Source: Gammaproteobacteria bacterium (GTDB lineage: Bacteria > Pseudomonadota > Gammaproteobacteria > HTCC5015). Taken from it: a stretch of 12,103 nucleotides of DNA. The DNA lies in the NCBI GenBank assembly GCA_020630145.1, contig JAHDBX010000001.1, positions 24,040 to 36,142 on the forward strand. The letters are read 5' to 3'. Numbering within the stretch: position 1 is the first letter of the stretch; each line of letters begins with the position of its first letter. The notes beneath the pieces are model-generated. The model saw nothing but the letters and a program-made list of their open reading frames with translations. It did no database searches and was not told the origin of the DNA. The position numbers were made by a program, and so were the translations under genes. Positions 1,269-6,304 of the stretch are shown piece after piece.

Positions 1269-1784
1269 TTACTTCGAGTACAGGATATATAAATCTCTTT
1301 CTTCCAGTGTTACACGTTTGGTTAACGCGCTACCAATATTGTTATAGTCTTCTTCAAACTCAGCTGCTAATTCAGCAGATAGTTTGGGTTCATTGTATTT
1401 ACGGCAGAACTTAATAACGGCATTAGCAATACCGTTCATGTCGCGGCGAAACTCTTTGATAATATCTAAGCTGTGTGCATCGTCGGCTAGGTTTTGTTCT
1501 AAGTAAACATAGAACTTAACATTTTCTTTTAAGATGTGACTTTGAAATTCATATTTAAAGCTGTCTAACTTTGCCGCCATTTTTTTGTAATCTTTTTTCA
1601 AAAAGCAATCTGACCAAATTTCACCAAATAAATTAACGAGTCTAGCGTGGTCGTTTTCAAGTTCTGGTATTAAGCAGGAGTCGTAGTGAATGCCTTTGTT
1701 GCCTGAAAAATTTGTTGTAATCGGCGTGCTTAGATTTGCGGCTGGCGATCGTCCATTTAAAAAATTATATATTGCTGTTATCAC
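1269..1784 (-). CDS. Hemerythrin-like (HHE-type) four-helix protein
   Basis: The 171-residue cytoplasmic protein has no signal peptide or membrane segment. Its central part resembles hemerythrin/HHE cation-binding domains: helix A with IPELENDHARL (H46), helix B with SHILKENVKFY (H83, E87), a third helix around 105-127 and a terminal EERDLYILY (161-169). Family members bind a di-iron site and serve in oxygen, NO or iron sensing or in iron-centre repair. The His normally expected in helix C is replaced by the stretch FRRDMNGI, and H33 and H104 are possible alternatives, so a canonical di-iron site is uncertain. The start is a GTG at 1784; GGAG (complement of 1795-1798) lies 10 bases upstream and no in-frame ATG exists before M69. 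The gene is convergent with tal and divergent from the redox operon at 2230. The fold call is reasonable, while ligand and role are unknown. Confidence 0.65.
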   Translation of the reverse strand: MITAIYNFLNGRSPAANLSTPITTNFSGNKGIHYDSCLIPELENDHARLVNLFGEIWSDCFLKKDYKKMAAKLDSFKYEFQSHILKENVKFYVYLEQNLADDAHSLDIIKEFRRDMNGIANAVIKFCRKYNEPKLSAELAAEFEEDYNNIGSALTKRVTLEERDLYILYSK

Positions 1785-2229: not shown

Positions 2230-4299
2230 GTGAAATTGGATGTCCTGGTTAGTAGGAATAAAAATAAGAAAAATGGCAGAGAGTATGTAGGCGAAAACCT
2301 ACAAGAAAATGCGGAAATATTACCACCCGATGCTCGCCGACATGAATCAATTAGCATTGAATTTAAAACACCAGCAATTGTTATTATAGGTGCTGGTCCA
2401 GTAGGTATTCGATGCGCGCAATTAATTTTAGATACTAATTATAATCAAGACGTCATTGTTTATGGTGATGAGTCAGCAGACCCTTATGACAGAGTAAATT
2501 TGTCTGCCTATATAGCAGGTCATGTTTCAAGAAAATCTTTAGCCAACCCAGTCAACGCAAAAATACCCAATAAATTTAAACAAATAACAGACTGCCGTAT
2601 AGTTGAAATTAACCGGGAGAAAAAATACGTTGTAGACCAGTATCAACGTCGCCAGTCATATTCAAAATTAATATTGGCAACGGGTTCATCAGTTAAGCCT
2701 TTAATGATTGATGGGGTGCGTTCAAGTTCTATACGCGCTTTGCGAACAATTGATGATGCGGATTACTTACTATCTATAAAAGATAAGATCCAACACTTAG
2801 TTATTGTTGGGGGCGGTTTGCTGGGCGTTGAAATTGCAATAGCAATGAAAACAGCTCGTTTAAATGTGACCTTGCTCGCGCCACATGGCTTGTTAACAAA
2901 AATGATTAGCACAGAAGCATCAGAGGTATTGGGTGACTACTTGCTATCACAAGGCGTATCATTAAAAACGAATGTAGCAATAGACAGTTGTAGAAAAACA
3001 AAAAAAGGGACGTCTTTATTTCTTGCTGATGGAGAAACCTTAGCATGCGATGAAGTTGTTGCTGCAATTGGCACACAGCCAAATACTGCTTTAGGCGAAA
3101 GCGCTCATTTGAAGTTGGAACAAGGTATTGTTGTTAATGATCATATGCAAACGTCAGACCCTAATATTTACGCGATAGGCGAATGTGCTGAGCATAAGAA
3201 TGTGTTGCATGGTTATGTAGCACCTGGTTACTCGCAGGCCCAAGATGCAGTCGATCATATGCATAAAGTAAACAGGCCCAAGCAGATTGCATTAAATAAA
3301 ATTGAACTTAAAGTGTTAAAGCAATCCGTTACTCTAGTGGGTGAGACGTCGTTGCATAACGGTGAGTGTAAAAAAGTTGTTTATGTAAATAAATTTAGTA
3401 GTGAATACCGGCAGGTTTTCATAAAGAAAGGCCGCTTAGTGGGTTATATTTCAATAGGTGACTGGGCCGCCAGTAGGCAATTACAACAAGCCATTAAAAA
3501 TAAGCAGCGTATTTATTTCTGGCAGCTCAAGCGTTTCAAGGAGCAAGGCGAACTGTGGAAGGAGTCTGCATCTATAACAACAAATGACTTGCCGGATGAT
3601 TACATTGTTTGTCTTTGTAATAATGTTACACGTCAGAAAATTAGTCATTCAATGGCTGATGGCAATCGTACAGTTGAGTCGATAGGTGCTGCAACATTTG
3701 CGGGTACAACGTGTGGTAGTTGTAAGTTTATGATTAATGAAATGCTCGATCAACCTGTTGAGCACCTCGTTATGCGGCATCATAAAAAAGTCGTTGGTTT
3801 TTCTCTGGTGTGTTTGTTATTAATCGTGATGTATGCTGTTATGCCGCCAGTTAATGCTGTGTTATCAATAGAAAATGGTTGGACTATTGCTAACTTCTGG
3901 TTTGACAATTTTTGGAAGCAAGTAAGTGGTTATGGCTTGTTAGGTTTTATGTTGTTGGCTGGCGCATATATAGCGCGCAGGCGAATTAAAAAAGTTAACC
4001 TTGGACATTTAGATGACTGGCGTTTATTGCATATTATTATAGGCGTGATAACAATGGGTATACTCTTTTTACATACAGGTATGCGCTTTGGTGAAAACTT
4101 AAATAAAGCGCTTATGATAGTATTTTTAATTGCCGCGTTTATGGGATCATCAGTTGGTATATTAATGGCAACGAGTGGCCATTGGCCAGAGGCAAGGCTG
4201 CAAAAATGGCGTCATGTGATATCGCGTTTTCACTATACATTATTATGGACGCTCCCCGCTTTACTTATTTTCCATATTATTTCCGTTTATTACTTTTAA
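2230..4299 (+). CDS. NirB-like FAD/NAD(P)H oxidoreductase fused to [2Fe-2S] and di-haem b membrane domain
   Basis: The 689-residue protein has a fused architecture. Residues 1-47 are a polar extension of unknown role. Residues 48-345 form a pyridine-nucleotide-disulphide-type reductase: FAD motif VIIGAGPVG (51-59), NirB-like PYDRVNLS (85-92), NAD(P) motif VIVGGGLLGVE (191-201) and FAD motif YAIGE (314-318). Residues 460-508 are a BFD-like [2Fe-2S] domain with CLC (461-463) and CGSC (495-498). Residues 521-688 hold five membrane helices, about 521-540, 566-583, 598-617, 626-648 and 667-688. Helix 3 carries H601/H615 and helix 5 carries H668/H682, each 14 apart, the spacing of bis-His di-haem b proteins. 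Basic loops (RRRIKK; KWRHVISR) put the N-terminal domains in the cytoplasm. The siroheme half of NirB is absent, so it is not a nitrite reductase. Likely role (inferred): moving electrons between NAD(P)H and periplasmic cytochromes. It is the first gene of the operon, with 44 bases to the next. Confidence 0.85.
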   Translation: MKLDVLVSRNKNKKNGREYVGENLQENAEILPPDARRHESISIEFKTPAIVIIGAGPVGIRCAQLILDTNYNQDVIVYGDESADPYDRVNLSAYIAGHVSRKSLANPVNAKIPNKFKQITDCRIVEINREKKYVVDQYQRRQSYSKLILATGSSVKPLMIDGVRSSSIRALRTIDDADYLLSIKDKIQHLVIVGGGLLGVEIAIAMKTARLNVTLLAPHGLLTKMISTEASEVLGDYLLSQGVSLKTNVAIDSCRKTKKGTSLFLADGETLACDEVVAAIGTQPNTALGESAHLKLEQGIVVNDHMQTSDPNIYAIGECAEHKNVLHGYVAPGYSQAQDAVDHMHKVNRPKQIALNKIELKVLKQSVTLVGETSLHNGECKKVVYVNKFSSEYRQVFIKKGRLVGYISIGDWAASRQLQQAIKNKQRIYFWQLKRFKEQGELWKESASITTNDLPDDYIVCLCNNVTRQKISHSMADGNRTVESIGAATFAGTTCGSCKFMINEMLDQPVEHLVMRHHKKVVGFSLVCLLLIVMYAVMPPVNAVLSIENGWTIANFWFDNFWKQVSGYGLLGFMLLAGAYIARRRIKKVNLGHLDDWRLLHIIIGVITMGILFLHTGMRFGENLNKALMIVFLIAAFMGSSVGILMATSGHWPEARLQKWRHVISRFHYTLLWTLPALLIFHIISVYYF

Positions 4300-4343
4300 T
4301 AGGCAAGCCTTCTTAATACACCTACTTAATAGTTTATTATTTT

Positions 4344-5696
4344 ATGACTTCTTTTCGTTTTCGTTTTTTCCATTTTGGGATAATGGTTGCTGTTATTCCA
4401 GCAATTTTTTATGGTTATAACTTAATATGGGGTGATCAAGGATTGTTTTTAATTGGTGATACGAGTCATGGTCATCATCAAATTGAAATGCAATGCGACG
4501 CTTGTCACACCTCGCCGTTTGGTGGAGAAGAGGTATTGCAAGATGCATGTGTAGATTGTCACGCTAATGAGTTGAAGGTATCGAGAGATAGCCATGCAAA
4601 GTCTAAATTTACTGATCCACGTAATGCAGAATTGTTGTCTGTTTTTGATGCTAGGCAGTGTGCGGTTTGTCACCGTGAACATCGACCAGAAATTACCGGT
4701 GATATGGCTGTTGCTATGCCGAGTGATTTTTGTTTTCAGTGCCATGCTGAAATTATTGAAGAGCGCGAGAGCCATGCTAATCTTGCTTTTGATTCTTGTG
4801 ACTCGGCGGGTTGCCATAACTACCATGATAATACGGCGCTTTACACTGATTTTTTAACAGATCATATGCATGAGGCTGATACTAAAAAGGAAGCACGTTT
4901 ACCTTTGCGTAACCAGTTAGAAATATATGTAAAGAAAAATGATATAGATCAACGCAGCACGAAAATATCCAGTCCTGATTGGCTTGTTAATGGCGATGAA
5001 GTACAACAAAAGATAATTGAAGAGTGGCAAAGTAGTGCGCACAGTGTAGTTGGTGTTGCTTGTTTGGATTGTCACACGGGCGAAGAAGTGTCTGATGAAA
5101 AAAGTGCGATACATTTATCGATAGCAGTATGTTCAGATTGTCATGAAAGCCAAGCGCTGGGGTTTCGTTCCGGTAAGCATGGCATGCGTATAGAACAAGG
5201 CTTGCCACCTATGACGCCTGCTATGGCTAAACTGCCTATGCATGAAGAAAGTAAACATAAGGAGTTAAGCTGTGTAAGTTGTCATGGCGCGCATACGGTT
5301 GATACAAACTATGCTGCTGTTGATAGCTGTTTAGGTTGTCACGCAGATGAGCATACCAAGGCATATCAAGAGTCCGCTCATTATCGTTTATGGCAGCAAG
5401 AACAAGCCGGCGATTTACCTGCTGGCTCGGGTGTGAGCTGTGCAAGCTGCCATATGCCAAGAAGTGTTGACACTAAAGACGAAAATAAACTTGTATCTGT
5501 TGAACATAATCAAAATGCAAATTTACGGCCAAATGAAAAAATGTTGCGCAGTGTATGTATGAATTGTCATGGTTTGACATTTTCATTAAATGCACTAACT
5601 GACAAGGAGCTCATTAAATGGAATTTTAATGCAAAACCGACCGGAGAATCTGAAACCATGCAGATGGTAGAAGATTATTTAAAAAAACGTGAATAA
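4344..5696 (+). CDS. Membrane-anchored undecahaem cytochrome c (c3/HAO-like)
   Basis: The 450-residue protein has an uncleaved-looking N-terminal anchor (about 9-29) after a basic start (R5, R7), which places the rest in the periplasm. Eleven haem motifs are visible: CXXCH at 51, 69, 106, 130, 240, 263, 310, 329, 366 and 405, plus CX4CH at 152-158. The first five are c3-like and cluster in 51-158. An 81-residue segment without haem motifs (159-239) follows, then six haems whose spacing and extra histidines recall the hydroxylamine oxidoreductase/c554/NrfA superfamily. That resemblance is general, and no catalytic signature such as the HAO crosslinking tyrosine can be assigned. ATG 4344 lacks an evident Shine-Dalgarno. 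The frame has a stop at 4314 and no other start before 4344, so translation may be coupled to the gene upstream. It probably receives electrons from, or delivers them to, the di-haem membrane protein. The substrate is unknown. Confidence 0.9.
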   Translation: MTSFRFRFFHFGIMVAVIPAIFYGYNLIWGDQGLFLIGDTSHGHHQIEMQCDACHTSPFGGEEVLQDACVDCHANELKVSRDSHAKSKFTDPRNAELLSVFDARQCAVCHREHRPEITGDMAVAMPSDFCFQCHAEIIEERESHANLAFDSCDSAGCHNYHDNTALYTDFLTDHMHEADTKKEARLPLRNQLEIYVKKNDIDQRSTKISSPDWLVNGDEVQQKIIEEWQSSAHSVVGVACLDCHTGEEVSDEKSAIHLSIAVCSDCHESQALGFRSGKHGMRIEQGLPPMTPAMAKLPMHEESKHKELSCVSCHGAHTVDTNYAAVDSCLGCHADEHTKAYQESAHYRLWQQEQAGDLPAGSGVSCASCHMPRSVDTKDENKLVSVEHNQNANLRPNEKMLRSVCMNCHGLTFSLNALTDKELIKWNFNAKPTGESETMQMVEDYLKKRE

Positions 5697-5722
5697 CACG
5701 GAATAATAAAAGAGGATAAAAA

Positions 5723-6304
5723 ATGAAAAGTAAACTAGTTTTGTTGGCATTCCTGTCAACCAGTGTAGTCGCATTGAGTGGCTTTAGCTTGTTTGGTGGT
5801 GATAAAGAAGAGGGTAGCGTGTCATTGCAACGGATGGCTGATGCTATGTTCGCTGTGATGGAAGCGGATCGCGCCAACTATACAAAGGAAGTAGTGCATC
5901 GCATGCAAAATGTCGAAAAAATAGTTGATGCAGATGAGTTTTGGGAAGACAAAAAAGCCTTGCCATTGCCGGCACAAATGTTTCGTTTGGGTGCAGAGCG
6001 TGTAGCTGAAAAAGACCTTGGTTTTACTTATGGCTTATTATCACAGTGGCCTATTAATAAACAGAATAAAGCAAAAACAAAAACAGAAAAAGAAGGTTTG
6101 GCTTACATTGCTGAGAATGCAGGTGAGAATTTCTATGGCAGTGAAAAACTAGGCAGTGATACATATTTTACAGCGGTCTATCCAGATGTTGCCGTTTCAA
6201 AAGCTTGTGTAAGTTGCCATAACGAGCATAAAGACTCGCCACGAACAGATTTTAAACTAGGCGATACAATGGGAGCGGTTGTTATACGTATTAAAGCGGA
6301 TTAG
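5723..6304 (+). CDS. Secreted monohaem cytochrome, DUF3365/Tll0287-like
   Basis: The 193-residue protein has an N-terminal signal sequence (about 1-20, K2/K4 then a hydrophobic core) and no lipobox cysteine, so it is exported to the periplasm, either cleaved or tethered. One haem motif, CVSCH (162-166), is followed by NEHKDSPRTDFKLGDTMGAV, and upstream lies FTYGLLSQWPINKQN. Both are hallmarks of the DUF3365 (Tll0287-like) haem domain, which has a PAS-like fold and often occurs in sensors or small redox proteins. C162 and C165 are the only cysteines, so a cysteine axial ligand as reported for the cyanobacterial Tll0287 is impossible here; H59 is a candidate distal ligand. AGAGG (5711-5715) lies seven bases before the ATG. 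It starts 26 bases after the multihaem gene, making it the last member of the operon. It could be an electron shuttle or a ligand/redox sensor for the system. Confidence 0.88.
   Translation: MKSKLVLLAFLSTSVVALSGFSLFGGDKEEGSVSLQRMADAMFAVMEADRANYTKEVVHRMQNVEKIVDADEFWEDKKALPLPAQMFRLGAERVAEKDLGFTYGLLSQWPINKQNKAKTKTEKEGLAYIAENAGENFYGSEKLGSDTYFTAVYPDVAVSKACVSCHNEHKDSPRTDFKLGDTMGAVVIRIKAD

Follow-up and report, generated by a model that had tools for sequence, protein, structure and literature searches.

The locus and its three genes

The window, the 12,103-nucleotide stretch of gammaproteobacterial DNA analysed here (assembly GCA_020630145.1, contig JAHDBX010000001.1, positions 24,040 to 36,142), contains three genes, designated A, B and C, whose products, judged from their sequences, probably form an electron wire that leads from NAD(P)H over the inner membrane to haems in the periplasm. 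Gene A (2230..4299) encodes a NirB-like FAD/NAD(P)H domain, a BFD-type [2Fe-2S] domain and a di-haem b membrane domain. Gene B (4344..5696) encodes a protein with an N-terminal hydrophobic stretch and the haem motifs of an 11-haem cytochrome c, and gene C (5723..6304) a Tll0287-like (sCache_heme) mono-haem c protein. The initial annotation had described three co-directional genes with gaps of 44 and 26 bases, and our own open reading frame (ORF) calls agree with it in coordinates, strand (plus for all three) and gaps. An in-frame ATG on the same strand at 2206 provides an alternative start of A, upstream of the GTG at 2230; the GTG is the likelier start because GGAGG lies directly 5' of it. 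Residues of A are counted from 2206.

Conservation of the A-B-C unit

GTDB genomes were scanned with the C-terminal part of A, and the best 80 of 200 relatives were kept as the A-anchored set, which covers five phyla (Pseudomonadota, Poribacteria, Planctomycetota, Nitrospirota and Verrucomicrobiota). With gaps of less than 600 bases as the criterion, A, B and C occur in this order and close together in 76 of the 80 loci. In one of the four exceptions the contig ends before C (L060); in the other three (L052, L061 and L088) a C match is present, but the long ORF that carries it overlaps B, and the gap test failed for that reason. A second set was anchored on B by running a B profile against 369 genomes of the class with a cut of 1e-30. 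B was found in 27 genomes (29 places in all), and no tail of weaker matches appeared at this cut. A-B-C is present at 26 of these places; the remaining three are a contig end, a broken B together with A, and a B alone (G285). A draw of 398 genomes from the phylum revealed B in two genomes besides the host, in both as A-B-C, and in total 28 of the 31 B-anchored places carry A-B-C, a total that includes the two copies of the host. Some organisms (L054/L140 and L070/L131, for example) occur in the A-anchored as well as the B-anchored set, and the two sets hence are not independent.

Since 76/80 and 28/31 loci keep A-B-C, the arrangement is not a chance cluster. By the initial annotation, homologues usually found apart would have refuted the proposed electron conduit; the search for co-occurrence shows instead that the three genes are almost always together, which also supports the operon. 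According to record titles, the module is present in the cultured marine genera Microbulbifer, Simiduia, Pleionea, Aliikangiella and Neiella, which makes the acceptor of the wire accessible to mutants. Two unusual places were observed on the side: the B-like gene of G285 (L147:9240-10559) has 11 CxxCH and no CX4CH and adjoins a rhodanese-looking gene, and in G286 (L148) A adjoins a shortened B with four CxxCH, a decaying or misassembled copy.

The predicted NAD(P)H flavocytochrome b encoded by A

Protein A is matched by the Pfam families Pyr_redox_2 (9e-55), Rubredoxin_C (1e-11) and Fer2_BFD (7e-13). Its residues 58-518 align with positions 1-469 of the 794 positions of NirB (TIGR02374), at a score of 306 bits that lies below the cut-off of 578, and the sirohaem/4Fe-4S half of NirB is unmatched. 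The BFD-type [2Fe-2S] domain recognised by Fer2_BFD comprises residues 467-515 (3604..3750, plus strand) and, when the C-terminal profile was used, matched bacterioferritin-associated ferredoxin in the PDB (2e-9). In an alignment of 23 sequences, made up of 20 homologues including the window copy and three loci, the cysteines CxC...CxxC at 469/471/503/506 are invariant, as are His609, His623, His676 and His690, the candidate ligands of two b haems.

These histidines lie in the membrane domain (3790..4296, plus strand, edges approximate), in which hydropathy reveals five segments, the second of them weak. His609 and His623 are in the third segment and His676 and His690 in the fifth, and 13 residues separate the members of each pair. 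The positive residues of A place the BFD domain and His609/His676 on the cytoplasmic side and His623/His690 on the periplasmic side; the topology and the pairing of the haem histidines are predicted on this basis. No strong Pfam family was found for the membrane tail among the 10 members scanned: the prokaryotic cytochrome b561 family (Ni_hydr_CYTB) matched seven, with a best value of 2e-5, DUF4405 six (best 5e-4) and Ferric_reduct three (best 0.003). The window A has no match to Ferric_reduct (PF01794).

The 11-haem cytochrome encoded by B

Window B, on the plus strand, contains 10 CxxCH and one CX4CH, within which all of its 22 cysteines reside; the catalytic haem motif CxxCK was not found in it. 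The pattern of 10 CxxCH and one CX4CH is kept in 83 of 84 B sequences, and in the 84th (L099) B is split over two ORFs. Conservation at >=0.98 in the 84 sequences holds for each of the 11 haem motifs and for 11 histidines outside them (positions 44, 84, 113, 144, 161, 233, 279, 317, 337, 346 and 388); no further histidine reaches 0.8. Eleven haems and eleven extra conserved histidines amount to two His ligands per haem and therefore suggest that every haem of B is bis-His coordinated and that B acts as a wire. To judge by eye from its hydrophobic N-terminus, B is probably anchored in the membrane.

Searched against the PDB, the B profile finds eight-haem nitrite reductase, NrfA and hydroxylamine-oxidoreductase-like proteins through its C-terminal half; the best stretches lie from position 214 onward only, and the match to eight-haem nitrite reductase has a value of 3e-11 over the whole chain and of 1e-5 in the strongest single stretch. 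With the DmsE/MtrA decahaem family (TIGR03508), B scores 50 bits, below the cut-off of 192.

The mono-haem protein encoded by C

Protein C, also encoded on the plus strand, matches PF11845 (Tll0287-like) with 6e-20 and a score of 72.5 against a cut-off of 24 bits. It contains one CxxCH, which is conserved at 0.99 among 83 C sequences. Apart from the N-terminal signal-like stretch, from whose hydrophobicity C was judged by eye to be probably secreted, it has no transmembrane or signalling part. The only two cysteines of window C are those of CxxCH, and the axial Cys of Tll0287 is absent. Counted from 15 residues before DRxxY onward, 82 of the 83 sequences have no Cys beyond the motif; the sole exception to the Cys-free haem domain is L053, with its Cys at a lipobox-like place. 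A PDB sequence search with C gave nothing usable (a single sequence yielded one match at 0.79 and the profile none). The available text of PMC12889525 describes an sCache_heme protein without the axial Cys that binds NO tightly. By analogy, the haem of C, which lacks this Cys, may be an open, NO-reactive site, and is taken here as a lead.

Globin and hemerythrin-like partners

Neighbouring genes were clustered using a simple ORF caller and blastp, most clusters being named by eye, and partners were scanned with fixed score cut-offs up to about 8 kb on either side of the 80 A-anchored loci. A partner of a type that binds O2 or NO is encoded in 72 of the 80 loci, two types together in none: 32 loci have a single-domain globin, 27 a hemerythrin-like protein, 13 a truncated globin and eight no partner. 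An FNR-type reductase accompanies the truncated globin in 13/13 loci and is found in 0/67 others. For the B-anchored loci, flanks were taken for 20 of the 29 places, the window, three places retrieved separately and five without flanks being left out; 13 of these loci have one partner, seven none and none two. In L021, which belongs to neither locus set, a truncated globin occurs without the FNR gene.

Mapped on a quick tree built from 84 B sequences, the four partner states require nine changes, as compared with a mean of 41.6 after shuffling. Clade inheritance therefore accounts for much of the partner pattern. Two loci with single-domain globins (L056 and L099) nest inside the truncated-globin clade, from which it follows that partner swaps occurred.

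The host has a second A-B-C copy on the same contig, about 24 kb from the window copy (L018:2077-7785; G000 C95), that was absent from the initial annotation. The two copies of B are 50% identical. Downstream of the second copy are genes for a small cytochrome c, a truncated globin and a 2Fe-2S FNR-type reductase, and in the quick tree its B belongs to the truncated-globin clade, to which the window copy does not belong.

At the window locus a hemerythrin/Rsd-like gene (1269..1784, minus strand) is divergent from A. In up to 24 of 78 loci, a relative precedes A on the same strand, one or two ORFs away. The family (30 sequences) keeps H46, H83, E87 and E161/162 and also resembles Rsd; the full textbook set of ligands is not kept. 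The protein encoded at 1269..1784 may contain a diiron site or act as a regulator. The family accompanies A-B-C in Microbulbifer, Simiduia, Pleionea, Aliikangiella and Arenicella. The globin and hemerythrin context did not form part of the initial annotation. The other genes of the window encode a transaldolase, tRNA-Met, RpoD, an AhpC/TSA-type protein and a transketolase.

Association with nitrate assimilation

Nitrate assimilation is a further context that the initial annotation did not contain. NrtA/NrtB or an ANTAR regulator is encoded in 12 of the 80 A-anchored and 9 of the 20 B-anchored loci; among the A-anchored loci a globin is present in 45 and an Nrt/NasT gene in these 12, and the window locus has neither. 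In 8 of the 27 B genomes, NrtA and B share a contig and are no more than about 5 kb apart; by our estimate, chance proximity amounts to about 1% per genome for a 20-kb stretch. An NrtA-type protein (cut E 1e-70) was found in 23 of the 27 B genomes and in 56 of the 342 others (Fisher p 2e-13, with kinship ignored). The count depends on the cut: at a best E <1e-160, the numbers are 20/27 and 41/342 (p 4e-12). NirB occurs in 22/27 B genomes versus 145/342 others (Fisher p 7e-5), and within the genomes that have NirB, NrtA is found in 21 of 22 with B and in 49 of 145 others. That A-B-C replaces the nitrite reductase was considered and dropped on account of NirB in 22/27 B genomes.

Searches for nitrate reductases covered the 27 B genomes, without control genomes. 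A NasA-type reductase was found in 23 of them (18 strong, five at 36-37% identity), NapA in five, one of which is below the family cut-off, and NarG in three. By gene content, the B genomes are mainly those of nitrate assimilators. The window genome itself has a NirB with NirD- and NasA-looking genes behind it (by eye) and one NrtA.

Three side observations were made in this context. In G048 (L132 and L152), A-B-C-globin, nrt genes, a nap cluster and urease-looking genes lie within about 30 kb. A gene of the same genome (L132:15329-16261) encodes a protein of about 310 residues without a Pfam match and with a QQHRG motif; proteins with a similar start occur in L056 and L076. It is perhaps a nitrate sensor. 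In G140 (L142 and L153), NarG and NirB, recognised by family models, and an Alginate_exp-like porin are encoded near A-B.

Proposed electron flow and function

In the proposed mechanism, NAD(P)H would reduce the FAD of A, and the electrons would then reach, on the cytoplasmic side, first the [2Fe-2S] domain and next the b haem between His609 and His676, before crossing to the b haem between His623 and His690 on the periplasmic side. The anchored 11-haem protein B would receive them there and hand them to C. Besides B, no periplasmic partner other than C is conserved throughout. An unbroken chain of cofactors from NAD(P)H to the periplasm had been proposed in the initial annotation, and the motifs, the Pfam matches and the invariant Cys and His residues support it. 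Flow would be outward, favoured by the potential of NAD(P)H and the inside-negative membrane potential, with no visible quinone step. We infer the direction, the order of the electron carriers, the topology, the His pairing and the acceptor; the motifs, their invariance, the gene unit and the association with partners and nitrate genes are read from the sequences themselves.

With confidence that stays slightly below even, it is proposed that the module exports NAD(P)H electrons outward and serves in the handling of nitrogen oxides, most likely NO. The cytosolic O2/NO-binding partner, be it a globin, a truncated globin or a hemerythrin-like protein, would work with A-B-C, and the module would most likely remove NO or related species formed in nitrate assimilation. 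A precedent is described in the available text of PMC4724949: a nitrate-assimilation cluster of Bradyrhizobium encodes a globin together with an NAD(P)H flavoprotein, and the two counter the NO formed by the assimilatory reductase. If the proposal holds, A-B-C would tie nitrate assimilation to globins and multihaem cytochromes in a single system open to experiment.

Several findings weigh against this proposal. No acceptor has been demonstrated for the electrons of A-B-C. In the stretch examined, 68 of the 80 A-anchored loci have no Nrt/NasT gene, and this holds for all 27 hemerythrin-type loci (0/27 with such a gene). No nitrate gene adjoins the window copy, which is surrounded by housekeeping genes. 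G001 and G002 belong to the same family as the window genome and are without B, and the B-like gene of G285 has neither A nor C beside it. The B tree indicates that the exclusivity of the partners is partly inherited, and the Fisher tests treat genomes as unrelated. Boxes for FNR/DNR upstream of A, scanned with a consensus motif, are not enriched (3/77 versus 4.8% of random stretches), nor is the NsrR half-site significantly more frequent there (3/77 versus 1.6%, p 0.13). As to C, the available text of PMC12889525 states that the tight NO binder is membrane-bound and fused to HAMP, that stand-alone members of the family, to which C would correspond, are given redox and not NO-sensing roles, and that a stand-alone member whose Cys was changed to Ala retained NO binding, if weakly. 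The missing Cys alone is therefore insufficient for an NO site.

A more specific version of the proposal, possible if doubtful, is a defence in two compartments: the cytosolic globin or hemerythrin would remove NO inside, and the quinone-free wire would reduce NO-type species outside, at an open haem in C. If true, the cell would possess a periplasmic NO sink powered directly by NAD(P)H.

Catalysis might reside in B instead. B, together with C, would then be a periplasmic nitrite, NO or hydroxylamine reductase that receives NAD(P)H electrons via A, for which the resemblance of the C-terminal B profile to eight-haem nitrite reductase (3e-11; 1e-5), NrfA and hydroxylamine-oxidoreductase-like proteins speaks, as does the nitrate context. 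We consider this unlikely. B has no CxxCK, and 11 extra conserved histidines for 11 haems suggest that no open site is left, an argument tempered by an active-site His in NrfA-type enzymes that is not a ligand. Moreover, NirB is encoded in 22/27 B genomes, where the known enzyme is thus not replaced by B.

Equally low in our estimation stands a role as a general reductant valve or in extracellular electron transfer. The composition of the module as a wire from NAD(P)H to the periplasm fits such a role, and the sub-threshold similarity of B to DmsE/MtrA-type decahaem proteins (50/192 bits) agrees with it. The available text of PMC5371394 proposes electrode exchange for the 11-haem Tel_16545 of Ca. 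Tenderia electrophaga, a parallel drawn from haem number. Arguing against the valve is that among the 40 most widespread neighbour clusters no outer-membrane porin-cytochrome partner was recognised by eye; 5 of the 80 loci encode a porin, of which the single member scanned is Alginate_exp-like. The association with nitrate genes and globins would also be left unexplained.

Signalling in place of detoxification is likewise improbable. C would in that case be a periplasmic sensor of redox state or NO kept reduced by A-B, and its family (Tll0287/DUF3365) is indeed a Cache domain with NO-sensing members. C lacks, however, a transmembrane or signalling part past its signal-like N-terminus, and no transducer gene occupies a fixed place beside C among the 40 most widespread neighbour clusters.

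Two further roles have very little to recommend them. Supply of Nap, the nitrate reductase of the periplasm, with electrons from NAD(P)H is suggested by G048, in which napF and napA (by family models), followed by lookalikes of napG, H, B and C (by eye), lie a few kb past A-B-C-globin-nrt, but with NapA in 5/27 B genomes (one below the cut-off) and NarG in 3/27 it is weak as a general role. Inward flow, with a periplasmic donor reducing NAD(P)+, is hardly to be expected either: haem wires are reversible in principle, but the inside-negative potential and the low potential of NAD(P)H oppose such flow, and no conserved periplasmic dehydrogenase was recognised among the neighbour clusters. The initial annotation had considered an inward mode driven by the membrane potential; for a bare electron wire, the sign of that potential is wrong by established bioenergetics. 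Inside negative, it drives electrons outward and would oppose the reduction of NAD(P)+ without an extra coupling, of which nothing was seen here.

Comparison with known systems

The large subunit of the NADH nitrite reductase, NirB, shares with A the FAD, NAD(P)H and BFD [2Fe-2S] domains, but where NirB has its own sirohaem half, A has the di-haem b membrane domain. The latter invites comparison with NOX and ferric reductase flavocytochromes b, with which A would share the path from NAD(P)H to FAD and over two stacked b haems to the outside. The candidate haem ligands of A, His pairs with 13 residues between their members in two hydrophobic segments, would correspond to the NOX pattern of such pairs in two helices. 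The head of A, in contrast, is of the NirB type, is N-terminal and includes an added [2Fe-2S] domain.

The well-known routes of Gram-negative bacteria to periplasmic multihaem cytochromes start from quinol. Inner-membrane cytochromes of the CymA/NapC and CbcL types transfer electrons from quinol to periplasmic cytochromes, whereas A has its own NAD(P)H site. A widespread module that takes its electrons from NAD(P)H and bypasses the quinone pool would offer another point of entry to periplasmic cytochromes, useful for redox engineering. NrfA, eight-haem nitrite reductase and hydroxylamine oxidoreductase-like proteins resemble B in its C-terminal half; B differs from them in having 11 haems and no CxxCK.

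With Tll0287 and the sCache_heme proteins, C shares PF11845 and CxxCH; Tll0287 and the stand-alone member of P. putida have the axial Cys, according to the available text of PMC12889525, and C does not. In the narK-bjgb-flp-nasC cluster of Bradyrhizobium (PMC4724949), which NasS-NasT controls, nitrate-assimilation genes stand together with those of a single-domain globin and an NAD(P)H flavoprotein. Its available description mentions neither a membrane b haem nor a multihaem cytochrome nor a C protein, and the likeness to A-B-C was judged from this description.

The initial annotation knew of no named complex with this composition, and a search of the open-access PMC literature revealed none either. 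The available texts of PMC5371394, PMC13293256, PMC9230427 and PMC13322032 do not describe the A-B-C module; two of them name 11-haem cytochromes that may or may not be related to B: Tel_16545 in Ca. Tenderia electrophaga and another from Thiomicrorhabdus kin. The parts of A-B-C are of known kinds, and their combination appears to be new.

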